DNA from: Bacteroidia bacterium Ga0077558
GTDB lineage: Bacteria; Bacteroidota; Bacteroidia; Chitinophagales; Chitinophagaceae
DNA length: 64,000 nt
Direction of reading: 5' to 3'
Assembly (NCBI GenBank): GCA_001464625.1
Contig: LNFJ01000004.1
Location: 1-64,000, forward strand
Of the stretch, positions 39,841 to 54,338 are shown piece after piece. Below the pieces are notes generated by a model that worked only from the letters and a program-made list of their open reading frames with translations, was not told the DNA's origin and made no database searches. Numbering within the stretch: the first letter of the stretch is position 1; each line of letters begins with the position of its first letter. Position numbers and translations under genes: made by a program.

Positions 39841-41031
39841 TTAGAATATACTGCCAGGCTTTATTGTCAACTCTATTAATTCGCCATTCCGTCTTACAAT
39901 CAGCTTAATCTTCTCTTTAGCCGACTGAAGAATGGTTTTATATTGCATTATATTGTTGGTGAAATTAGACCCCACACCAATTAATACATCGTCTTTTTTT
40001 AATCCGGCCTTCTCAGCCGGTGAGCCAGCCATTACATCATCCACAAAAATTATTCCCTCATCAAAGTAAATTGCAAGCCCGGTATAAGCATAGTCAAATG
40101 CGTCACGGTAGTGGCTATTTGGCAATAAATGAATCTCACCTTGCGGATAATTAACTGTTATATTAAATCTTCGCAACAAGTCATTTCCCAACAAGCCACC
40201 TACTTTTGGGTATGCTGTTACATTAAATTCATCCTTGTATAGAAAGACGGGCACATTACGAAACCTGTATTTACCTACTTCAAGCATTTTAATTACCGTG
40301 AGTCGCATTTGTATTTTGCCGCCCATGCCTTCAGCCTGCGTTAAAACAGGTTTACGGCGGTGTAACAGAATGCTGCTATCTTCTACAAATGCTTCATTCA
40401 ATAAAAAATTTAATCCTGCGCCGGTATCAAAATAAAAATTATGCTGTAACCTTTTTTTGTCTTTAAATAATAAGTTAACCGTGGGCAGCCTGTTAATCAC
40501 TGGTTGCAAAATTGCACCGCCTTTTTCATATTGAATTTCTCCAGGAGTATAAACCGATAAGGTTGAGTTGTCGAAATCAATCTTTACAATGTATCGGCTG
40601 AAGAAGCTATATCCTATAATACCATCAATTTTCTCTCCGTATACACTAGTTAACACTTCATAGTTATTAACATGAAAATGCAGCTTGTCTATACTAATTC
40701 CCGGAAAGTGAAGTTGTTTATTAAACACATAATTCACTTTATGGCTGCCGCCCATTCCGATGATTGTGGTATCTGTTGGGAATGTTTTTATATTATACTT
40801 TGCACAGGTAGAAGAATCAAGTGAGATACCGCTGCTACCTGTATCAAGGATAAAATTCAGGGAATCAGAAATTGTCTCAAATTTTGCACTGATAACCATT
40901 ACTCCGCCGCTATATATCTTAAATGGGAATTTAGTTATCAGCTTTGCTTCGGGAAGTGGTTTTAATAATTCTTGTCCGGCACAGTAAATCTGTGAGTAAT
41001 TAAAGAGTAATAAGCAATAAATAAATTTCAT
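39841..41031 (-). CDS. exported retropepsin-like aspartyl protease with PDZ domain
   Basis: 396 residues from ATG 41031 (MKFIYCLLLFNYSQIYCAGQ, a signal peptide); the track start is 6 codons earlier. Two catalytic DTG motifs, ILDTGSSGISLD near residue 68 and FDTGAGLNFLL near 205, give a pepsin-like double-psi-barrel pair within one chain. A C-terminal PDZ domain contains DDVMAGSPAEKAGLKKDDVLIGVG. Such proteins are common in Bacteroidota and presumably act in the periplasm; substrates are unknown. Confidence 0.82.
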   Translation of the reverse strand: MKFIYCLLLFNYSQIYCAGQELLKPLPEAKLITKFPFKIYSGGVMVISAKFETISDSLNFILDTGSSGISLDSSTCAKYNIKTFPTDTTIIGMGGSHKVNYVFNKQLHFPGISIDKLHFHVNNYEVLTSVYGEKIDGIIGYSFFSRYIVKIDFDNSTLSVYTPGEIQYEKGGAILQPVINRLPTVNLLFKDKKRLQHNFYFDTGAGLNFLLNEAFVEDSSILLHRRKPVLTQAEGMGGKIQMRLTVIKMLEVGKYRFRNVPVFLYKDEFNVTAYPKVGGLLGNDLLRRFNITVNYPQGEIHLLPNSHYRDAFDYAYTGLAIYFDEGIIFVDDVMAGSPAEKAGLKKDDVLIGVGSNFTNNIMQYKTILQSAKEKIKLIVRRNGELIELTIKPGSIF

Positions 41032-41073
41032 GCTGGCAGGTAATGACACAAATTATAATTACACAGATACTCA

Positions 41074-42512: not shown

Positions 42513-44123
42513 TTAATAATTTGGATTCTGTGTGTAATTGGCATTCTGTTGTGTTTCTGAAAGAGGTATTGGCCAAATAAACCTGAAATCAGCGTAGGGT
42601 ATAGCCGGAACTATAGTTGTATAAGTAGTTCCACCCGCACCACAGGAATACATAGCAGTTGTTGCAACCCCTGTTCCAATTTTTGCTGGTATGCCTGCTG
42701 TACCAAAAGTAGCATCTGTTGCTAAGCGATGAATATCACCCCACCGTTTTCCTTCCGACAGAAACTCTATTCGCCTTTCAACAAGAATTGCACTAATCAA
42801 GTTATTCTTGGAAGGAAAATCCAGTAGTACATACTGCTGCGTAGCCGGATTTGCTAAGGACCTGTTTCTAACAGCATTTAGTAAATCTAATGCTCTGGTA
42901 CTTATACCCGCATCGTTTCTTGCTTCAGCTTCTGACAGCATGAGCAATACTTCAGCGTAGCGTATTTGAGGAGCAGCATCTGTGCTGGTAGCAACATCCT
43001 TATACTTTGTTGTAAGGTAGTTGGTAGTTCCTGCTGAAGTATAGGCAACTAAAAGATTTCTGCGTTTATCATCACAACGCCACTGTGGTAAATTAAAAAT
43101 TATTGGACTGATACGAACTAAACCCCTTCCGCTATTTGCGGGAGTACCCAACATGTTGGCAAGAGCTGCATTTACACCTGCATTATCTGTTGATGCATTA
43201 CGGATAGAGAAGATACTTTCATCAGAATTCCAGGGAGAAATAAAAGCATCTCCCGGATTGGCCATTAATTTCCATCCACCAATTGGGCTTACATATGGAC
43301 CTGACCCAGCCGGAACTAATTTATTGCCTTCTGCAATTACACCAGCCCAATCTCCTTTGTGCAGTTTTACCCTCATTTTAATGGCAATAGCAGCCGCTTT
43401 TGATGTTCTAAATGTTTTTTCGCTCCCACCCGTAGGGTTTTGAATGGTTACAGGTAAATTAGTTTCTGCGTAGTCAAGGTCTTCCAGAATTTTTGTATAA
43501 TTTTCAGCTACTGTTTTCCTTGTTAATGCCTTAGCTGCTTCCACTTCTTCATCACTTGCAACTGCAAAATCTCTGTAAATAATTCCAAGTTTCGAACCAT
43601 TACCATCACTATAAGGCCGGGCATAATTAATTACCAGTTCATGGTGAGCCATTGCCCGTAAGAAACGGCACTCAGCTAAGTATTGATTACCCAATGCTGC
43701 ACTAATTACGTTTTTACCTACAGCATCACTTACTCCTTTAATCACCAGATTACATCTGTTAATTAACGCATATAATGTATTAAACATAAACTCCTGATTG
43801 GCAGAAGTAGAATTGTAAGTTGCCTCATATGTAATCTGATAAAACAGTGCCTGGTTCAGCATATCTTCTCCCCGCATATCTCCCTGTTGAACATTTGCCG
43901 CACCGAATGGATAGCCACGAACCTGTCCACCGGCATAAAATCCACTTTGGGCCGCATCATAAACTCCATTCATTGCAGATTCAATTCTCGCTGGTGAAGT
44001 AAAAGCAGTAACATCGGTAAATGAATTATACGGTGCTACTTCTAATGTTTTTTTGCAAGAAACAACAGTAAAGCATAAAATGCTTATTGCCAAAAAATTT
44101 CGTATGGTTACATTTTTTTTCAT
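42513..44123 (-). CDS. SusD/RagB-family outer-membrane lipoprotein (pair 1)
   Basis: 536 residues from ATG 44123 (MKKNVTIRNFLAISILCFTVVSCKK), with a lipobox VVSC; the track start is 10 codons earlier. SusD proteins cap SusC channels and bind oligosaccharides or other large nutrients at the cell surface. Family features: a helical TPR-like N-terminal half (ECRFLRAMAHHELVINYARPYSDG) and the late motif RYAEVLLMLSEAEAR, then RRIEFLSEGKRWGDIHRLA. Partner of the SusC at 44163. No glycoside hydrolase lies nearby, so the nutrient cannot be guessed. Confidence 0.93.
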   Translation of the reverse strand: MKKNVTIRNFLAISILCFTVVSCKKTLEVAPYNSFTDVTAFTSPARIESAMNGVYDAAQSGFYAGGQVRGYPFGAANVQQGDMRGEDMLNQALFYQITYEATYNSTSANQEFMFNTLYALINRCNLVIKGVSDAVGKNVISAALGNQYLAECRFLRAMAHHELVINYARPYSDGNGSKLGIIYRDFAVASDEEVEAAKALTRKTVAENYTKILEDLDYAETNLPVTIQNPTGGSEKTFRTSKAAAIAIKMRVKLHKGDWAGVIAEGNKLVPAGSGPYVSPIGGWKLMANPGDAFISPWNSDESIFSIRNASTDNAGVNAALANMLGTPANSGRGLVRISPIIFNLPQWRCDDKRRNLLVAYTSAGTTNYLTTKYKDVATSTDAAPQIRYAEVLLMLSEAEARNDAGISTRALDLLNAVRNRSLANPATQQYVLLDFPSKNNLISAILVERRIEFLSEGKRWGDIHRLATDATFGTAGIPAKIGTGVATTAMYSCGAGGTTYTTIVPAIPYADFRFIWPIPLSETQQNANYTQNPNY

Positions 44124-44162
44124 TCTTAAATATTTTAATTTTTCAATTCTCATTTAGTATGA

Positions 44163-47100
44163 TTAGAAACCTACATTTAACCCTACAGTAAATGTTCTCA
44201 ACTGAGGCACCGAGGCGTTGTCTATACCAAGTTCAGAGGTGTTCTCAGGGTCTATGCCGGAATACTTTGTCCACAATCCGAGATTCTGCCCCTGCACATA
44301 AAAGCGGATGGATTTAATATGTCCTTTTGAAATTCGCTCAAGCATTGGCTTATCAAAATTGTAGAACAGCATCAGGTTTTGGAATCGCAGAAAATCTCCA
44401 TTTTCCAGAAACCGTGAGTTCATTTGATTCTGTAGATTAATTACATTATCCCTGCCATAAAACAGTTTCGGAACATCCGTGTTTTTGTTATTAGGTGTCC
44501 ATCTGTCTAGGATTTCCTTGCCATTATTTACAAAACCCATGCTATTTAAAACTTCCTGCCTTGTAAGGTTGTACACTTTATTACCGCCTGAGAAACGTAA
44601 AAATATTTCTGCTCCAAATCCTTTGTACGTAAAAGAGTTTGTAAATCCACCAAACCATGTTGGAACAGGACTTCCTAAAACTTGCCTGTCAGCACCTATT
44701 AAAGAAGAGGCAGCTCCTAAGTTTGCGTCGTCTTTACCAATTACGAGATAATACCCCGCTGCTGAAGTAGTGACTGCATTATATTGAACTAATGAACCGT
44801 TAGCTTTAACCCACATGGCATTACCATTACCACTATTTACACCTGCATATTCATAGCCATAAAATCCGTTGATAGGCTGCCCCACACGAAGTATATTAAA
44901 GTTGCCGTTATTGGGCCCAGGAACAATTTGCTCAGTAACTCCATTCACTAATGACTTAACAACGTTCTTAGAAGTGGTAATATTCAAATTGGCATTCCAG
45001 TTAAAATCCTTCTTACGTATCACATCACCTGAAAGGCTAAACTCAAGCCCTTTATTTTCCATAGTACCAATATTTCTGAAAATAAAATTACCAGGAATAC
45101 CTAATGATGGTGGTGTTTGGGCCTGTAGTACGAGGTCATCATTCTTATTAACAAAATAATCAAATGCAAAGTTGAACCTGTTGTTTAAGAAACTGAAATC
45201 AGCTCCTACATCAATTTTCTTATTAGTTTCCCATTGCAAGGAAGGATTGCCCACCAAGTTAATAGCATTACCGGAAACTGCGCCATACGGAGCAGCGCCA
45301 TATGTACTTAGGAATGGAAACCCGGTTAATGGGTTACCAACCACCGCATAAGAGCCTCTGATTTTTAGTTCATTAATTATTTTATTTAACCCACTGTTCT
45401 TCCAGAATTTCTCTTCTGATATTCGCCATCCTATTGAGCCCCCAGGGAAATTACCATATTGTTTACCGGGAGCTAAACTTGAAAGGCCGTCTCTTCTTAT
45501 TGTGAATTGAGCGAAATACTTGTTCTCATAATCATAAGTAGCCCTTCCAAAAAATGACTGAAACCCTGCTTTTGCAAAATTGCCTGCTGATAATTGTACA
45601 GCGTAAGTATTACTGATTAGGTTATCTGATGCGAAAAAAACGTCGGAAAGGCCTGTGCCAGACGCTGTATAAGCCCTGTTAATATCCCTTTGCATCTCAA
45701 TACCACCTGTTAATCCCACAGTATGTTTTGAAGCAAATGTTTTGTTGTAATTAAAATAATTTTGCCAAACATATCTTGACCGTTGCAGGTGCTGCTGATT
45801 TAAAATGCCTCCAGAGCTTCTACCGTCTCCATGAATTGGATTAAGATATGTAAAGTCAGAACCTGTTTGGTAATCTATTGACACTTGTGAACGGACAGAT
45901 AATCCGCTAAAAGGATTTACCTCAAGAAACGCATTACTGATAATTCTGTACTTATCGCTATTTGCTTTGTTATTATCAAGAACGTACTTAATATTATTAT
46001 AGTTGTTCTCAATGGTTCTTGTATTTGCATCAGCACCTAAAGCATCACCAGATGGGGTCATGTTGTAGCCAGTCGGATGTGATGGGTTATAAACTCTCAC
46101 ATTAGGCAAAGCCCTTAATGCAGCACCCATTGCACCCGACAATGCGTTTCCGCCATTGTTTTGGTCATTATCTTCAGTACGGCTGATGGTTATGTTATTA
46201 CCGAATTTTACAAACTTATTTACTTTATGGTCAAAACTTGCCCGCATATTATACCGCTTGGCCGAGTTTGTAAATACAATCCCCTGCTGTTGCAAATAGT
46301 TTAATGAAAAATAGTATGTAGTCTTATCATTTCCGCCAGCCAAGGAAAGGGTGTGGCTTTGTGCAGTACCGTTATTTTTAAATACCTGCTCCAACCAGTC
46401 TGTATTAGTATTTTCTGAATTCATAAATGCAGCAGCAGGTTGTCCGGCATTTGTAAGTTTTTCATTGGATATCGTAACAAACTCCTGAGCATTTAATAGT
46501 TCCGGTTTGTTAAACGCCTGGCTAAATCCGAAATAAGCATCATATGTGACTGACATTTTTCCCGCCCTGCCTTTCTTAGTCGTAATCATCACGACACCGT
46601 TAGAAGCTCTTGAGCCAAAGATGGCAGTAGCAGCACCATCCTTTAGCACTTCTATAGATTCAATATCGGCCGGATTAATATCGCTGAGTGGATTGGTATT
46701 TGTATTAGCGGATAAACCACCAGATGGAACTGGAATACCATCTACAACAAATAATGGGTCTCGCCCTCCTGTAAGCGAATTCACACCTCTAATGCGAACA
46801 CGGGGGGCAGCATTTACTAAACCTGTTCCTTGTGTTACCTGCACTCCTGATGCCCGACCTGCCAACATTCTGTCAACACTTGTTGCAGGAGTAGTAGCAA
46901 TTGACTCACCTGAAATTTTCGTAATGGATGAAGTAACGGTTTTTTTCCTCTGGGTACCGTAGCCAACAACTACTACCTCCTGCAGGTTTTTTTCGATAGT
47001 ATTTAATACAACAGCAAAGAAGGTTTTGTTGCTAATAGTAACTTCTTCATCAGTGTATCCGGTGAAGCTAAAAACTAAAGCTTTTGCAATTCCTGAAGTG

Positions 47101-47288
47101 CTTAAGGAAAATGTGCCATCAGCCTTAGTGGTTGTACCTTCATTTGTTCCTTTAACAACTACAGATACTCCCGCCATATTCTGGCCTTTTGCATCTGTTA
47201 CTTTTCCTGAAATAGTTCGTTGTTCTTGTGCCGAAAGTTGATTTAAGAAACCAACACATAGCAGCAGTAGTAAAATTAGTTTTCTCAT
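44163..47288 (-). CDS. SusC/RagA-family TonB-linked outer-membrane protein (pair 1)
   Basis: 1041 residues with a signal peptide (MRKLILLLLLCVGFLNQLSAQ). The N-terminal carboxypeptidase-regulatory-like domain (ISGKVTDAKGQNMAGVSVVVKGTNEGTTT) is followed by the plug (YGTQRKKTVTSSITKISGESI, VRIRGVNSLTGGRDPLFVVDG, ASNGVVMITTKKG) and a 22-strand-type barrel ending in an aromatic C-terminus (TVGLNVGF). TonB-dependent import. No extra N-terminal anti-sigma-signalling domain is present. Its leader carries structures shared with the second susC. Confidence 0.94.
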   Translation of the reverse strand: MRKLILLLLLCVGFLNQLSAQEQRTISGKVTDAKGQNMAGVSVVVKGTNEGTTTKADGTFSLSTSGIAKALVFSFTGYTDEEVTISNKTFFAVVLNTIEKNLQEVVVVGYGTQRKKTVTSSITKISGESIATTPATSVDRMLAGRASGVQVTQGTGLVNAAPRVRIRGVNSLTGGRDPLFVVDGIPVPSGGLSANTNTNPLSDINPADIESIEVLKDGAATAIFGSRASNGVVMITTKKGRAGKMSVTYDAYFGFSQAFNKPELLNAQEFVTISNEKLTNAGQPAAAFMNSENTNTDWLEQVFKNNGTAQSHTLSLAGGNDKTTYYFSLNYLQQQGIVFTNSAKRYNMRASFDHKVNKFVKFGNNITISRTEDNDQNNGGNALSGAMGAALRALPNVRVYNPSHPTGYNMTPSGDALGADANTRTIENNYNNIKYVLDNNKANSDKYRIISNAFLEVNPFSGLSVRSQVSIDYQTGSDFTYLNPIHGDGRSSGGILNQQHLQRSRYVWQNYFNYNKTFASKHTVGLTGGIEMQRDINRAYTASGTGLSDVFFASDNLISNTYAVQLSAGNFAKAGFQSFFGRATYDYENKYFAQFTIRRDGLSSLAPGKQYGNFPGGSIGWRISEEKFWKNSGLNKIINELKIRGSYAVVGNPLTGFPFLSTYGAAPYGAVSGNAINLVGNPSLQWETNKKIDVGADFSFLNNRFNFAFDYFVNKNDDLVLQAQTPPSLGIPGNFIFRNIGTMENKGLEFSLSGDVIRKKDFNWNANLNITTSKNVVKSLVNGVTEQIVPGPNNGNFNILRVGQPINGFYGYEYAGVNSGNGNAMWVKANGSLVQYNAVTTSAAGYYLVIGKDDANLGAASSLIGADRQVLGSPVPTWFGGFTNSFTYKGFGAEIFLRFSGGNKVYNLTRQEVLNSMGFVNNGKEILDRWTPNNKNTDVPKLFYGRDNVINLQNQMNSRFLENGDFLRFQNLMLFYNFDKPMLERISKGHIKSIRFYVQGQNLGLWTKYSGIDPENTSELGIDNASVPQLRTFTVGLNVGF

Positions 47289-47317
47289 TGCATTATGTTT
47301 TTGTTAACAGAGCAATG
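47286..47317 (-). promoter_or_regulatory. susC leader with start-codon inverted repeat, copy 1
   Basis: On the minus strand CATTGC, 20 nt, GCAATG, where the final ATG is the SusC start codon. The 32-nt leader (CATTGCTCTGTTAA...) is nearly identical to copy 2. Confidence 0.65.
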
Positions 47318-47336
47318 AAAATATTGATATGCTGCA

Positions 47337-47363
47337 CTCTTGTTAGCACTATTCAACAAAGAG
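47337..47363 (-). promoter_or_regulatory. conserved bulged stem-loop upstream of susC, copy 1
   Basis: Minus strand: CTCTT, bulged T, GTT, loop GAATAGTGCT, AAC, AAGAG. It has an 8-bp stem with one bulge. Copy 2 at 52389 keeps the bulge position and GAATAG loop start, with a different stem sequence. Confidence 0.6.
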
Positions 47364-47799
47364 CAGTAATGTTAATACCGATAGTAATAAATGCAAGAAA
47401 AATGGCATTAGGGATTACATTTTAGTGGTTAGTAATCCTTTTTTGCCCATTGTTATAATGTGTAGATACCGACAAGGTAATTTCTTGTCTTAGAAAAAGT
47501 ATAGTTAAAAAGAGCAGGTAGTAGAAACCACCTGCGTTGCGACGTGTCTCTTTCTTAAACTAAACGTCACATGAGAAAATCTTACCTTATTGATATTACC
47601 ACACCACCCAAACTATCTATTATTGGTTCTTCAATCTCTTTGAGTTGTAAAAATAGTTCTGTGCTGCATCATGTTTTGCTCTATTCAACCAGTGAATAAA
47701 AAAGTTAGTCATAAGATTTACTGCAAAAGAAAATTGGCATCAATACAGCGTTATGTGATGTCTATCATCTTATAGGTGAATTAGTATAAACGGTAACAA
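47364..47799. other. gene-free stretch between the two SusC/SusD operons
   Basis: About 440 bases without a plausible gene. It probably holds the upstream promoter region of operon 1. Apart from the neighbouring stem-loop and terminator no structure was recognised. Confidence 0.5.
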
Positions 47800-47827
47800 A
47801 AAAGTGGTTCGCAATTGAACCACTTTT
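47800..47827 (-). terminator. terminator after the second SusC/SusD operon
   Basis: AAAAGTGGTTC, loop GCAATT, GAACCACTTTT: an 11-bp perfect stem 20 bp after the SusD stop at 47848. A T-run follows on the minus strand. Confidence 0.85.
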
Positions 47828-47847
47828 CATTAGTAAATTATCTTTTG

Positions 47848-49293
47848 TTAATACCCGGTATTTTGTGTTACCGCTGTATTCGCCAGTATTTCTTTTGCTG
47901 GTATTGGCCATACCCATTTATTGCTGGAGTTACTAAGTGAAGTTGCCATTTGTGCATTGGGATTACCTAGTCCAGCAAATGGTCTTGATACGCTTCGTGT
48001 AGTTCTTTTTAAATCAAACCACCGATGCCCTTCCAGACAAAGTTCTCTTCTTCGTTCGTTTGCAATTTCATCTTTTAATGCATTGCCACTGTAGCTAGTG
48101 TTTGTCCATCCTTGTATTCTTGCAGTTTTCAAAGCATTTAGGTCTGTACTGCCTGCAGCATCCTGGCCACTGGTATTTGCATATGCTTCGGCTCTTATTA
48201 AATACATTTCTGCTACCCGGAATACTTTAAAGTTGGTCAAATTATCGGCAGCAGCGCCTTTACCTTTAAACTTCTGAAATGCATAATTATTAATACCGGC
48301 AGTGCTGTTTCTGATAAAGAAATATGTATTAAAGCGAACATCGTTCACCCTGTCGTACAAGTTGAGTAGCGATACATGAACACCGAATGTATTTCGGTTT
48401 GCCCTGAAGGACATTATATCACCACTAGGGAATGGACTGCCAGGGTCACCAGGGTTATTTTGCACACCCCAAATAACTTCATTTGTATTTGCATCATTCC
48501 AAATGCCGGAGAATGTGGCTGCTGATGCAAGAGAAAACTGATTAATACATGCTGTTGAGTGTGTTATGGCAACAGGGTAATCTTTTGCATATAGGGCAAC
48601 TCTTGCAAATGCGGCTCTTGCACCCCACACATCAATAAAGCCTCTATTAGTACCGGTGTTTACAGGTACATCTACATCTGAAAGCAAGGCAACAGCTCTT
48701 GTAAGGTCAGCGTATATGGCATCATATACTTCCTTTACTGAATTTCTGGGGGGAAAAGTTATTTCATTGTCTGTTTTAATTGGTATGCCGGCGTCAGTTG
48801 AATTTCTGTCCAGGTTGTTTGCAAAACACTTTACTAAATCAAAATGTGCGATGGCTCTTGCTGCAAGTGCCTGACCAAGAATTCTGTTATACTTCTTGGA
48901 ATTTTCACTGGCGAATTTATCAATTCCGTTAATAATTACATTGGCCTGCCTGATGGTAAAATATGGTTGTACCCAAACATTCTCCATATATGTTTCATTG
49001 GCCAAATATTCCCAATTGCCTAATTTTTGAAAATTTACCAGTGATTCGATAGTTTCATATGCATTATCGGTAGGGGCCTCTGCTGTACAACTGATAAATC
49101 CATTATAATAATTTGGCGATGCAAAACTGCCGTACACACCATTTAACTGGCCTGCATAATCATCTAATTTATTAAATGCATTTGTAGTTGTTGATGAGTA
49201 AGGCGGTGTTAAATCAAGTTCTCTGTCACACGAAGTAAATATTAAACTAACTACCGCTATAGATAAATATTTTTTTATTGTTGCTCGTTTCAT
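47848..49293 (-). CDS. SusD/RagB-family outer-membrane lipoprotein (pair 2)
   Basis: 481 residues, lipobox IFTSC after a short signal (MKRATIKKYLSIAVVSLIFTSC). SusD hallmarks: a helical N-terminal half (NRILGQALAARAIAHFDLVKCFA near 140) and the C-terminal FKVFRVAEMYLIRAEAYA and ERRRELCLEGHRWFDLKR. It is a surface ligand-binding partner of the SusC at 49314, 20 bp upstream. Its ligand is unknown and no CAZyme gene accompanies it. Confidence 0.93.
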   Translation of the reverse strand: MKRATIKKYLSIAVVSLIFTSCDRELDLTPPYSSTTTNAFNKLDDYAGQLNGVYGSFASPNYYNGFISCTAEAPTDNAYETIESLVNFQKLGNWEYLANETYMENVWVQPYFTIRQANVIINGIDKFASENSKKYNRILGQALAARAIAHFDLVKCFANNLDRNSTDAGIPIKTDNEITFPPRNSVKEVYDAIYADLTRAVALLSDVDVPVNTGTNRGFIDVWGARAAFARVALYAKDYPVAITHSTACINQFSLASAATFSGIWNDANTNEVIWGVQNNPGDPGSPFPSGDIMSFRANRNTFGVHVSLLNLYDRVNDVRFNTYFFIRNSTAGINNYAFQKFKGKGAAADNLTNFKVFRVAEMYLIRAEAYANTSGQDAAGSTDLNALKTARIQGWTNTSYSGNALKDEIANERRRELCLEGHRWFDLKRTTRSVSRPFAGLGNPNAQMATSLSNSSNKWVWPIPAKEILANTAVTQNTGY

Positions 49294-49313
49294 ATACTGA
49301 ATATTTTAATGAA

Positions 49314-52300
49314 TTAAAAAGTAACTCTGATGCCAGTTTGCCATGTTCTGAGAGCCGGGTATTGTGCTCCGGTGAGTAAGGCATTAGGAAACTCAGGGTC
49401 ACGGCCACGATATTTTGTTGCTACCCATAAATTTGTTCCATTAACATAAAATAAGATACCCCGCAGTTTTAATTTATCTGTTACTGCCTTTGGCAAAGTA
49501 TAACTAAGGCTTACATTTCTTAGTCGGAGAAATGAATTGTCTTCGAGGAACCTGGTTGTCTCATACCAGAACAGATTCTCACCGGGGTTGTTACCAACAG
49601 GCTTGGGGATAGAAGTAATATCACCGGGATTCTTCCATTCTTTCAAGAGGTCAGCATTAATGTTATCGTAATAATAATCGGGATTTTCAAGATTTGCCCT
49701 TTCGTTATTATACACCACCGAATTTAGCATATAAGTAAACTGAGCTGAAAGAGCCAATCCTTTATAATCAGCAGCCACTGCAAATCCACCAAAAATATTT
49801 GGGTCAGAGGTACCATGTGTTGTCCGGTCATCAAGACTAAATACTTCTGTAGTTGATTTGTCGAGCTTTCGATAAGTGGCATACCCGTTTGCAGGATTAA
49901 CACCTGTATATTCAACAAGAAAGAGAGTGTTTAACGGTAGCCCTTTTATTGCGGCAATAGAACCATTAATAGCAGTGTCTTTTAAATCAAGTTTTGTTAC
50001 TACGTTTTTATTGTAAGTAATATTTCCATTGAAACTTACCCGCCAATCATTGTTTTTTACAATATCATAATTCACACTAAACTCAATACCTGAATTTTTT
50101 ACTGCTCCAATATTAGTTGTAACAGCAGTAAACCCGGTTGACCCAGACAATTGCCTTGGGAAAAATAAATTATCAGTTACTTCATTATAATACTCAACTC
50201 CGCCGCTAACCTTGTTTTTGAACAAGCTAAATTCAAGACCTGTATTAAATTTTTTCCTTTCTTCCCACTGAAGATTTGGCAAGTCCAATGAAGTTTGTAT
50301 TGTACCTATACCTGAATTATATAGTCTTGGGCCTATATTTCCCTGTGAAGCATAGAATTCTATTCCTTCCTGGCTACCTACTGTGCCGTAGCTGATTTTA
50401 AATTTAAGATTTGATAACCAGGAACCTCTCACTCTATCCATGAAACTTTCATCGCTTATAATCCAACTTGCACCAACTCCACCAAATTCCGCATACCTCT
50501 TCTGTGAGCCAAATCTCGATGACCCATCCTGTCTGATATTTGCATTGACAAAATACCGGTTCTTATATCCATAGTTAGCTACCGCAAAATAAGATTGGAG
50601 TCGGGCTTCCTGGCCATTTGCCCTTGTTCTTGGAATAAGGTCAGCACTTACGGTAAAGCCTGCTTCGTTTTGAAAGCGGCTATCCAACAGGAAACCTGTG
50701 TAACCATTATTCTCCAGTTTTGTAGCTATGTATTCATAATAAACACCGGCATCAATTGTATGCTCCCCAAAACTATTGGTATAGTTGAAAGAACTTGTAC
50801 TTGTTGTGCGCCAGTTTTTAAAATTATCTCTTGCAAAAGAGCTGGTACGGTAGTTAGTGCTGGCCCCGCTGGTAGGTCTTGGATTAAACCCACCATTATA
50901 GGTTCTTCTATCTGTAAATGCAGTTGTTTCATCAGAATTATAATCAATTCCGTACACTGTTCTAAAGGACAATCCTTTTAGAAAAGGAAATTTATATTCT
51001 GCATTTCCTGATGCAACAATCCGCATTTGCCTGGTATTATTATTATTCCAAAAAAGTTGTGTAGTGCCGATTGGCTGAAACGTTTCTGTAATTCTGGGTC
51101 TCGTTAAAGTTGTACCACCTGCTACAAAATTACCTGCAGCATTGTAAAACCCAGGTACGAACTCCTGCTCATAGGGATTGGTCCACTGTAAAGCATTTAA
51201 TGGCGACGCAATACTTGCATTTATTTCAGACGTATTTGAAAAGTCCGAGTAAGATGCAGTACTGTTTAATCCAAAAGAAAAATTACCAGCTTCCTGTGAT
51301 AAATTAATTCTACCCGTCAAGCGGTCAAAACCTGTGTTTATAATTGTTCCTTCTTGTTTAAAATAATTGATTGAAGCAAAATAGCGGGTCTTATCTGAAC
51401 CCCCGGAAGCAGAGCCATTCATGCTGTATGTTTTCCCGGTTCTGGTTAAAAGTTTTTGCCAATCGGTATTTATTTTTCGCATTGAATCAATCTCTGCAGC
51501 ACTGTAGCCTGATAAAGACGAACCGCCCCGCTGTAGCTCATAATCAATTTTTTCATTGGTATTCATTAATCTGAAATCTCTGAACTCAGGAAACTTTGAC
51601 CACCCTGTATAAGCATCAAACTCCAGTTTTGGTTTCCCTGCAATACCCCGTCTGGTTGTAACAACAATAACGCCATTACCACCACGGGAACCGTAAAGAG
51701 AAGAGGCAACCGCATCTTTTAACACAGCAACATTTTCTATGTCATTCGGATTTAATAAGGCAAAATCACCCGCTGCAATTTGAATTCCATCAACAATATA
51801 AATCGGTTCTGTAGAGCCTTGTATCGAACCACGACCACGGATGATAGCCGTACCACTGCTACCAGGTTGCCCTGAAGATGCTCTTAATAACAAACCAGGT
51901 GTTTGACCTTGTAATACCTGGTCAAACGATGCAATAGGAGTGGTTCTGATATTATCCCCTTTAACAATGCCTGCTGAGCCGGCAAAATTTCGCTTGGATT
52001 GCGACTTATAGCCTGTAACAACAACTTCTGACAGTGCCTGATTTTGCCCCCGCACTAATTTTATTTCAAGTTGCATACCTTCTCCAACCAGCACTTCCTG
52101 GTCTGTATATCCAACTGATGTTAATACAATTGATTTGGCTGATGAAGGAAGTTGAACAGAAAAACTACCGTCTGGGTTTGTTACTCCAATCCCTCTGCCC
52201 CCATACATAATTGTAACAGCACCTAAAGCTGCCCCATCTTTGGAATCACGAACATTTCCGCTGACGGTTTTTTGTTTTTGCTGAGCTTCTGCTTGTGAAA

Positions 52301-52343
52301 AGCAGATTGCTGAGATAATAAATAGTAAGATTAGTTTTTTCAT
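49314..52343 (-). CDS. SusC/RagA-family TonB-linked outer-membrane protein (pair 2)
   Basis: 1009 residues. Signal peptide (MKKLILLFIISAICFSQAEAQ), regulatory-like domain (VSGNVRDSKDGAALGAVTIMYGGRGIGVT), plug with GKSQ-type start (GYKSQSKRNFAGSAGIVKG), IRGRGSIQGSTEPIYIVDG and GGNGVIVVTTRRG, then a beta-barrel ending in TGIRVTF. TonB-dependent nutrient import. It shares the leader and stem-loop with pair 1, so both pairs are probably controlled by the same factor. The LytTR-type system lies upstream. Confidence 0.94.
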   Translation of the reverse strand: MKKLILLFIISAICFSQAEAQQKQKTVSGNVRDSKDGAALGAVTIMYGGRGIGVTNPDGSFSVQLPSSAKSIVLTSVGYTDQEVLVGEGMQLEIKLVRGQNQALSEVVVTGYKSQSKRNFAGSAGIVKGDNIRTTPIASFDQVLQGQTPGLLLRASSGQPGSSGTAIIRGRGSIQGSTEPIYIVDGIQIAAGDFALLNPNDIENVAVLKDAVASSLYGSRGGNGVIVVTTRRGIAGKPKLEFDAYTGWSKFPEFRDFRLMNTNEKIDYELQRGGSSLSGYSAAEIDSMRKINTDWQKLLTRTGKTYSMNGSASGGSDKTRYFASINYFKQEGTIINTGFDRLTGRINLSQEAGNFSFGLNSTASYSDFSNTSEINASIASPLNALQWTNPYEQEFVPGFYNAAGNFVAGGTTLTRPRITETFQPIGTTQLFWNNNNTRQMRIVASGNAEYKFPFLKGLSFRTVYGIDYNSDETTAFTDRRTYNGGFNPRPTSGASTNYRTSSFARDNFKNWRTTSTSSFNYTNSFGEHTIDAGVYYEYIATKLENNGYTGFLLDSRFQNEAGFTVSADLIPRTRANGQEARLQSYFAVANYGYKNRYFVNANIRQDGSSRFGSQKRYAEFGGVGASWIISDESFMDRVRGSWLSNLKFKISYGTVGSQEGIEFYASQGNIGPRLYNSGIGTIQTSLDLPNLQWEERKKFNTGLEFSLFKNKVSGGVEYYNEVTDNLFFPRQLSGSTGFTAVTTNIGAVKNSGIEFSVNYDIVKNNDWRVSFNGNITYNKNVVTKLDLKDTAINGSIAAIKGLPLNTLFLVEYTGVNPANGYATYRKLDKSTTEVFSLDDRTTHGTSDPNIFGGFAVAADYKGLALSAQFTYMLNSVVYNNERANLENPDYYYDNINADLLKEWKNPGDITSIPKPVGNNPGENLFWYETTRFLEDNSFLRLRNVSLSYTLPKAVTDKLKLRGILFYVNGTNLWVATKYRGRDPEFPNALLTGAQYPALRTWQTGIRVTF

Positions 52344-52372
52344 TGCCTTAGTTTTTGATTAACAGAGCAATG
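52341..52372 (-). promoter_or_regulatory. susC leader with start-codon inverted repeat, copy 2
   Basis: Minus strand CATTGC, 20 nt, GCAATG, identical arms and spacing to copy 1; the final ATG is the SusC start. Confidence 0.65.
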
Positions 52373-52388
52373 AAAATACCGTGATGCT

Positions 52389-52419
52389 GCGTTAGTAAAA
52401 GTGCTATTCTACTAAACGC
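52389..52419 (-). promoter_or_regulatory. conserved bulged stem-loop upstream of susC, copy 2
   Basis: Minus strand: GCGTT, bulged T, AGTA, loop GAATAGCACTTT, TACT, AACGC. It has a 9-bp stem with a single bulge in the same place as copy 1, and the same GAATAG loop start. Confidence 0.6.
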
Positions 52420-52552
52420 ACTAAACTACTACCTAAAAAAAATATGTGGCTGAAGTAAGGTTTTAATTCGTTAATTATTGGAGTTGGACCTACGATAAAT
52501 GCATTATCATAGGTAAACAAGCAATTATACTGGCCAAGATTAGTTCTAAAGT

Positions 52553-53269
52553 TTAAATTGGCTCCCCAAGCTGGCTTAAAACTAATTCCTTATAGCTTCT
52601 GCCAATTGGAATGTGCTGGCCCCCAATTTCTACTTCAATGGCTGTAAATGCATCTATTCTATTCCGGGCAATGATGAATGACCTATGCACCCTTAAAAAG
52701 TCGTTTTTAGCTAATTGCTCTTCTATTTCTCCTATCTGAAACTTAGTGAGGTAAGATTTATCTTTTGTTACAATACTGATATATTCTTTTTTGCTTTCAA
52801 TAAAAAGTATTTCGTCTAAATGTATTTTAATTCTTTTTTTATTTACATTAATAAAAACAAAAGGCCGGTCAGTTGATACTGCAGTTGAAGATGAAAAAAG
52901 AATTTCCTGCGGTAATTGATTTCGAAGTTTATTCACTGCCATCAAAAACCTGTTGAAATTAATAGGTTTAACCAGATAATCAACCACATTTAATTCATAT
53001 CCTTCCACCGCATAATCCCTGTAGGCAGTGGTAATGATAACTTGTGGCGGGTTCTTCAGTGTGCGGAGAAAATCAAGACCTTTCAGGCGGGGCATGTTTA
53101 TGTCGAGGAATATAACATCAATTTTACTTTTTTGAAGTATATCCATTGCATAGATGGCATCCTTACAAACACTTTTCAATTCGAGAAAAGGTATTTGTTT
53201 AATATAATCTTCAAGACCCTCGGCTGCCAGTGCCTCGTCCTCCACAATCATGCAACTATATTTTTCCAT
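52553..53269 (-). CDS. LytTR-family response regulator
   Basis: 238 residues. The receiver domain has acidic VEDE near residue 10, the phospho-acceptor Asp in VIFLDINMP near 55, and Lys in VDYLVKPI near 104. A LytTR DNA-binding domain follows: ILFIESKKEYISIVTKDKSYLTKFQIGEIEEQL and FLRVHRSFIIARNRIDAF. The start overlaps the kinase gene by 14 bp. It may control the adjacent SusC/SusD operon(s) or the DoxX-like gene; only its position suggests this. Confidence 0.94.
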   Translation of the reverse strand: MEKYSCMIVEDEALAAEGLEDYIKQIPFLELKSVCKDAIYAMDILQKSKIDVIFLDINMPRLKGLDFLRTLKNPPQVIITTAYRDYAVEGYELNVVDYLVKPINFNRFLMAVNKLRNQLPQEILFSSSTAVSTDRPFVFINVNKKRIKIHLDEILFIESKKEYISIVTKDKSYLTKFQIGEIEEQLAKNDFLRVHRSFIIARNRIDAFTAIEVEIGGQHIPIGRSYKELVLSQLGEPI

Positions 53270-54338
53270 AACTATTAAGGTTTATTAAAATGTTTACTGC
53301 AAACGTTTTTTCTTTATCTTCTATTTTCAGTTCATGTTCTTTGTACATTAATTCCAGTTGCCGCTTAATATTACACAATCCAATACGGTTATTTTTTTCT
53401 TTGACACTACCATTCTCTACAGAGTTTTCAATATTAAAATCGAGGTAACCTTTAGCCAGTTTTATATTTATACTAATAAAAGAATCAAATCTCGATTCGC
53501 TAACACCGTGTTTAAATGCATTCTCAATTAACGGCAGTAATATCAATGGAGTGATTTGCCGGGAACCATCATCAATTTCTTTTTCTACATGTACAGAAAG
53601 CTTTTCGTTGTACCTTATTTTCTCAAGGTCAATATAATCTTCCATTATTTTAACCTCGTCAGCAATAGAAATAGTTTCTTTCCCTGTTTCATACAGCATA
53701 AAACTTAGTAACTCTGAAAGTTTCATGACTACCTCAGGAGTTTTATCAGATTTTTTTCTGGCTAAAACATGGATATTATTTAGTGTGTTAAAAAGAAAGT
53801 GAGGGTTTGTTTGATTTTTTAAGAATTTCAGTTCAGCTTGCAGCTTCTCCCGAATAAGTATTTGCTCCCTTTCCATAGCTTCCTTCTCCCTGTTTCTTGC
53901 GGCAATCTGCATCCTTAGTAATTTCAGCGTTATACCAATACCGGTAATATATCCCATTTCTAAAAGTGAAATCAATACATTTCGGGCATTAAACAGTGGA
54001 ACAGTTACGTTTAATTGATAAACATGAGGGTTGATAATATAGTGAAAACTCATCCTGAATAACATGATAGACAGCGCAAGCAAAACACCTATTTCAGTAA
54101 TGATTAGAATCCAATTTTTCTTATCTGCCAGCATTTTCTTAACTCCGAACAAAACAAAGTAATAAACAATTAATAGCTTGGGCGGTAATACAATTAATGC
54201 TGTTTTTATTGCCATCCAATACTGCTCTTGTTCAGATACATCCTTTAAAATTGACTGCATCCAGACATAATGTAGCAGTGCATCTTGTACAAGATAAACA
54301 AGCCAGAAGACGATATGGACAACGGGTCGTTTCACCAT
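53256..54338 (-). CDS. LytS-type sensor histidine kinase
   Basis: 360 residues. Four membrane helices in the first 140 residues are followed by a cytosolic histidine-kinase part. The phospho-accepting His is in LKNQTNPHFLFNTLNNIHVLA, typical of the HisK/LytS family, and the ATPase domain has LLPLIENAFKHGVSESRFDS with later N and G boxes. It signals to the overlapping LytTR response regulator. The signal sensed cannot be read from the sequence. Confidence 0.93.
   Translation of the reverse strand: MVKRPVVHIVFWLVYLVQDALLHYVWMQSILKDVSEQEQYWMAIKTALIVLPPKLLIVYYFVLFGVKKMLADKKNWILIITEIGVLLALSIMLFRMSFHYIINPHVYQLNVTVPLFNARNVLISLLEMGYITGIGITLKLLRMQIAARNREKEAMEREQILIREKLQAELKFLKNQTNPHFLFNTLNNIHVLARKKSDKTPEVVMKLSELLSFMLYETGKETISIADEVKIMEDYIDLEKIRYNEKLSVHVEKEIDDGSRQITPLILLPLIENAFKHGVSESRFDSFISINIKLAKGYLDFNIENSVENGSVKEKNNRIGLCNIKRQLELMYKEHELKIEDKEKTFAVNILINLNSYGKI

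Follow-up and report, generated by a model that had tools for sequence, protein, structure and literature searches.

LytTR-type response regulators bind DNA sites composed of two 9- to 11-nt repeats separated by spacers of 11 to 13 nt (PMC4847170). Typically, the spacer is 12 bp and the site directly precedes the -35 element (PMC6193735). One such system is BtsS/BtsR (YehU/YehT) of Escherichia coli, which controls an uptake gene (PMC10653868). A different layer of control is known from Bacteroides thetaiotaomicron, where small RNAs occlude the start region of susC (FopS/RbpB; PMC11697453).

The window analyzed here, a stretch of 64,000 nucleotides from a Chitinophagaceae genome (Bacteroidia bacterium Ga0077558), carries a histidine kinase/LytTR regulator pair next to two SusCD transporter pairs. 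The genes of this locus are the following.

53256 to 54338, minus strand: histidine kinase (His_kinase family, Pfam PF06580), the presumed partner of the regulator, adjoining the regulator orthologue in orthologous loci as well.
52553 to 53269, minus strand: LytTR response regulator, the proposed binder of the sites described below (Pfam Response_reg and LytTR, PF04397, E 1e-18).
49314 to 52343, minus strand: susC copy 2, a SusC/RagA TonB-linked outer-membrane protein (NCBIfam TIGR04056).
47848 to 49293, minus strand: susD copy 2 (Pfam SusD_RagB and SusD-like_3).
44163 to 47288, minus strand: susC copy 1 (NCBIfam TIGR04056).
42513 to 44153, minus strand: susD copy 1 (Pfam SusD_RagB and SusD-like_3).

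Based on the comparisons below, we consider it very probable that a short element in front of both susC genes is the DNA operator of the adjacent LytTR regulator. It shares with the operators of AgrA, YpdB, BtsR, and HdrR/BrsR the arrangement of two short half-sites, whose 13-nt spacer lies within the published range of 11 to 13, as well as a position next to a gene for a LytTR regulator and ahead of the gene under its control. It differs from them in its sequence, GTTGAATAG and GCAGCA, whose half-sites are only loosely alike, in its Bacteroidota-type SusCD targets, and in the presence of three operators in a single locus. The system also resembles BtsS/BtsR of E. coli in being a histidine kinase/LytTR pair with an uptake gene as its target, and BtsR is the best NCBIfam match of the regulator; unlike in E. 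coli, however, the targets are SusCD transporters, and the match, at 123.6 bits, falls far under the BtsR cut-off of 246 bits. With FopS/RbpB control the locus has in common the susC start region as a control point, including a possible pairing of the start codon, whereas the conserved element is here a DNA motif linked to a regulator.

The region had drawn attention in a sequence-only reading through two minus-strand stem-loops, each with a one-base bulge and a loop containing GAATAG, about 50 nt before each susC start. All of these features are present in both copies: the hairpins (47363-47337 and 52420-52388), referred to as P1 here, lie ∼45 to 78 nt 5′ of the ATGs at 47288 and 52343. What is conserved, however, is a unit of the form GTTGAATAG-N13-GCAGCA, with half-sites 22 bp apart from start to start, and the shared "loop" GAATAG is part of one of its halves. 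The motif often continues with TTTCA-N3-CTCTG, which is less conserved than the half-sites. The sequence-only reading overlooked both the GCAGCA half, which begins 22 bp from where GTTGAATAG begins, and a third site within the locus. The hairpins and sites are as follows.

47332 to 47366, minus strand: hairpin P1 copy 1 (core 47363-47337), overlapping operator site 1.
52388 to 52420, minus strand: hairpin P1 copy 2, overlapping operator site 2.
47330 to 47357, minus strand: putative operator site 1, GTTGAATAG-N13-GCAGCA, before susC copy 1 (exact match; the extension TTTTCATTGCTCTG reaches 47308).
52385 to 52412, minus strand: putative operator site 2, GTAGAATAG-N13-GCAGCA, before susC copy 2 (one mismatch, supported by alignment with orthologous sites; the conserved extension TTTTCATTGCTCTG reaches 52363).
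47662 to 47689, minus strand: putative third operator site, in the gap between susD copy 2 and susC copy 1 (exact match).

When up to one mismatch was allowed, the genome of origin (4.08 Mb) contained these three sites and no others, all of them within this 5-kb locus beside the regulator. The spacer measures 13 nt in every aligned site. Since the half-sites are only loosely alike, with GTTGAA and GCAGCA having just positions G1, G4, and A6 in common (G..G.A), their character as direct repeats is weak. The earlier suggestion of an operator dyad or dimeric regulator site is borne out in part, in that the motif is tied to the LytTR gene and a regulator site is supported, while the dyad gives way to a spaced pair of half-sites.

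Support for this regulator comes from the recurrence of the motif with its orthologues. Exact copies follow orthologous LytTR regulator genes in five other genomes, mostly preceding a susC. In two other genomes of the same genus, with regulator orthologues of 64% (L108) and 49% (L109) identity, exact GTTGAATAG-N13-GCAGCA is found in the gap between regulator and susC, and L165 and L187 likewise carry the exact motif before a susC. At a further locus (L188, positions 1501 to 1528, the same site as that of L178), an exact copy after the regulator orthologue precedes a predicted small protein of 54 amino acids, with no susC. Two loci (L172 and L157) have a divergent version, GTTGAAAGC-N13-GCAGCG, after which TTTCATGGCTCTG stands at the offset known from the window; several other sites have CTC at this offset as well.

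We quantified this association in a set of orthologous regulators that had been picked without reference to the motif. Counting sites up to 600 bp after the regulator gene, 5 of the 32 orthologous loci (window included) have the motif with at most one mismatch and one more has it with two, while the remaining 26 show no good site in this interval; these regulators may have their targets elsewhere, or their specificity may have changed. Among 27 loci of LytTR paralogues, none has a site below three mismatches, and shuffled sequence likewise stays at three or more. A search of 399 family genomes with the exact pattern yielded 12 matches, against 0 for the reversed control. The matches beside regulator orthologues, two in the window and those in L183, L187, and L188, are intergenic. 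Five matches lie inside long coding frames, a number close to the 3 to 4 estimated for chance. Two further intergenic copies, L186 and L189, have no detected regulator orthologue beside them, and the latter lies upstream of a secreted-looking protein of 483 amino acids. When 42 genomes of the same genus were searched with a sequence-only model built from nine sites, E values below 1e-6 were confined to the three genomes that have a close orthologue of the regulator, and none of the others gave a match below E 0.01. Given that the strong matches in the genus are themselves members of the model, the informative part of this survey is the absence from the remaining genomes. Across loci, the site and the ATG are separated by anything from 69 to 130 bp, as opposed to the fixed half-site spacing of 22 bp, as is expected of a protein that binds DNA on one helix face and not of an RNA element at the start codon.

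These data lead us to propose a model in which the kinase would sense a nutrient-related signal and phosphorylate the LytTR regulator, a dimer of which would then bind the two half-sites, GTTGAATAG and GCAGCA, 22 bp apart on one helix face. The extension TTTCA-N3-CTCTG may be a third half-site or a part of the promoter. The bound regulator would control the two SusCD transporter pairs in concert and would probably serve as an activator, activation being the usual mode for this class of regulators. Repression is also possible, since within the window the site lies unusually near the ATG for an activator and since the search for a consistent Bacteroidota-type promoter at the sites, -35/-33 element included, placed none. 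With three operators, one per susC and one in the gap between susD copy 2 and susC copy 1, a single sensor can switch both pairs, and the model thus predicts their coregulation. It also puts forward a concrete operator for a two-component system of the LytTR type located beside SusCD genes, for which a limited literature search found no described example, and a simple motif for locating the targets of orthologous systems.

The leaders could additionally, or instead, act at the level of translation. In both copies, TTTTCATTGC can form a 10-bp pairing (P2) with GCAATGARAA over the susC start codon, and the gap upstream of susC copy 1 contains a terminator-like hairpin.

47282 to 47321, minus strand: possible hairpin P2 copy 1, predicted pairing of TTTTCATTGC and GCAATGAGAA that spans the susC start codon.
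52337 to 52376, minus strand: possible hairpin P2 copy 2, predicted pairing of TTTTCATTGC and GCAATGAAAA that spans the susC start codon.
47514 to 47535, minus strand: terminator-like hairpin with a T-run after it, in the stretch from the third site to susC copy 1 (1 found versus 0.2 expected).

A translational switch of this kind, compatible with the operator, would keep the susC start codon shut and require a ribosome, protein, or small RNA for its opening. It would account for the presence of P2 in both copies and for an unpaired probability of the start codon of 0.001, among the lowest 1 to 2% of 246 genes of the genome, and occlusion of a susC start by small RNAs has a precedent in B. thetaiotaomicron (PMC11697453). 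However, the geometry is not kept in relatives, where the ATG lies 49 to 108 nt past the second half-site compared to 47 in the window, and the occurrence in both copies could reflect a recent common leader. Some of the base pairs are accounted for by constraints of other kinds, namely, TTTCAT in the conserved site and ATGARAA as the usual start of susC, so that P2 may be incidental. On balance, we regard such a switch as unlikely. From the third operator to the terminator-like hairpin (47514-47689, minus strand), there is no long open reading frame, making this stretch a candidate for a short RNA. It includes ATTTTCTCATG, which is complementary to the start of susC copy 1, ATGAGAAAA, and in a post hoc small-RNA target test with a crude method, susC copy 1, L011, and L012 were in the best 1 to 2% of duplex energies. 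In its fullest form, the stretch would work as an operator at the DNA level and close the start codon through P2 at the RNA level, with the third operator driving a terminator-ended RNA (∼47605-47514) whose ATTTTCTCATG pairs with ATGAGAAAA. This would amount to a coupled transcription-translation circuit, a combination to which we give a low probability.

A comparably low probability applies to the idea that the operator is real but bound by a regulator other than the adjacent LytTR protein. The exact intergenic sites of L186 and L189, with no detected orthologue beside them, would fit this explanation, which is at odds with the linkage of the motif to orthologues of this regulator and with its absence both beside paralogues and from same-genus genomes lacking the regulator.

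The sequence-only reading had favored a conserved structure, on the grounds that the P1 stems differ in sequence yet both pair fully. The hairpins themselves are real, as described above, but there is no common pairing register: in the register of copy 2, only 7 of the 10 pairs can form in copy 1. Compared with shuffled sequences, copy 2 is unusually stable (z of -3.4, 0 of 200 shuffles), whereas copy 1 is no more stable than its shuffles (z of -0.6, 54 of 200). The alignment of the two leaders is free of gaps over 95 nt, 71 of the 95 positions being identical, and the likeness stops ∼20 nt into the coding sequence; the differences are concentrated in the P1 arms and the linker, sparing the motif, and a 20-nt block adjoining the start codons, TATTTTCATTGCTCTGTTAA, which had gone unnoticed before, is identical in both. 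When the 14 differing bases were randomized, a hairpin as stable as that of copy 1 arose in 12 to 14% of the trials (P = 0.12 to 0.14) and one as stable as that of copy 2 in ∼1% (P = 0.01). Given this outcome, the 7 of 10 pairs that copy 1 makes in one register, and the use of just two paralogous leaders, the compensatory changes are weak evidence of a conserved structure.

A P1 stem-loop conserved as RNA in the susC 5′ leader, serving attenuation or as the site of an RNA-binding protein, would explain why it occurs at the same place in both copies, with the bulge and the same start of the loop, as well as the stability of copy 2; L178 also has a strong hairpin of its own at the motif. The recurring sites do not retain the stem, however: the seven sites other than the two original copies form 35 out of 70 P1 pairs, which does not exceed the slid controls, in which slid structures over all nine sites form 29 to 56%. 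The covariance-model search from both hairpins that had been advised retrieved no homologue from either the 42 genomes of the genus or the 399 of the family; of its weak matches (E values of 0.04 to 0.4), the two that were inspected, L080 and L081, are AT-rich gene starts. Rfam has no match at the element, the sole match in the window being a tRNA elsewhere. Of the 30 TonB-receptor/susC leaders of the genome that were examined, out of 35 Plug matches, no other carries the element, and it is also absent from susC copy 1 orthologues (50 to 56% identity), whose leaders are different. We therefore judge a conserved RNA to be very unlikely; as far as sequence comparison indicates, the P1 hairpin arises incidentally from the sequences of the two leaders, illustrating that a spaced operator, when present in two leaders that are paralogous, can mimic a covarying RNA hairpin.

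That the likeness is a functionless remnant of a recent duplication of the susC leader, as the ungapped 95-nt block ending ∼20 nt into the coding sequence might suggest, is hardly credible in view of the 33% identity of the SusC proteins, the differences that spare the motif, and the contradicting recurrence of the motif in other genera with orthologous regulators.

Two additional searches gave only unrelated matches. Those of the 18-mer TTTTCATTGCTCTGTTAA, with one mismatch, in 299 family genomes were due to chance, with none preceding a susC, and the three matches to a gapped pattern in the genome contigs were all unrelated.

Several loci showed features of their own. Other hairpins, variable in sequence and sometimes terminator-like, e.g., CGCCCGTACAAACGGGCTTTTTC, are located at a similar position of the leader, ∼30 to 60 nt before susC, in the loci of copy 1 orthologues (L065 to L072, L074, and L076). 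Upstream of susC in L040, L041, and L042, there is a possible second operator type, consisting of TTCATGnTTCGGT direct repeats ∼22 bp apart; in L041 and L042, an oppositely oriented histidine kinase gene lies upstream. Finally, a few kilobases downstream of the susCD pairs in the window (39841-41049, minus strand), we found a gene whose product combines a PDZ domain with two stretches resembling retroviral-type aspartyl proteases.
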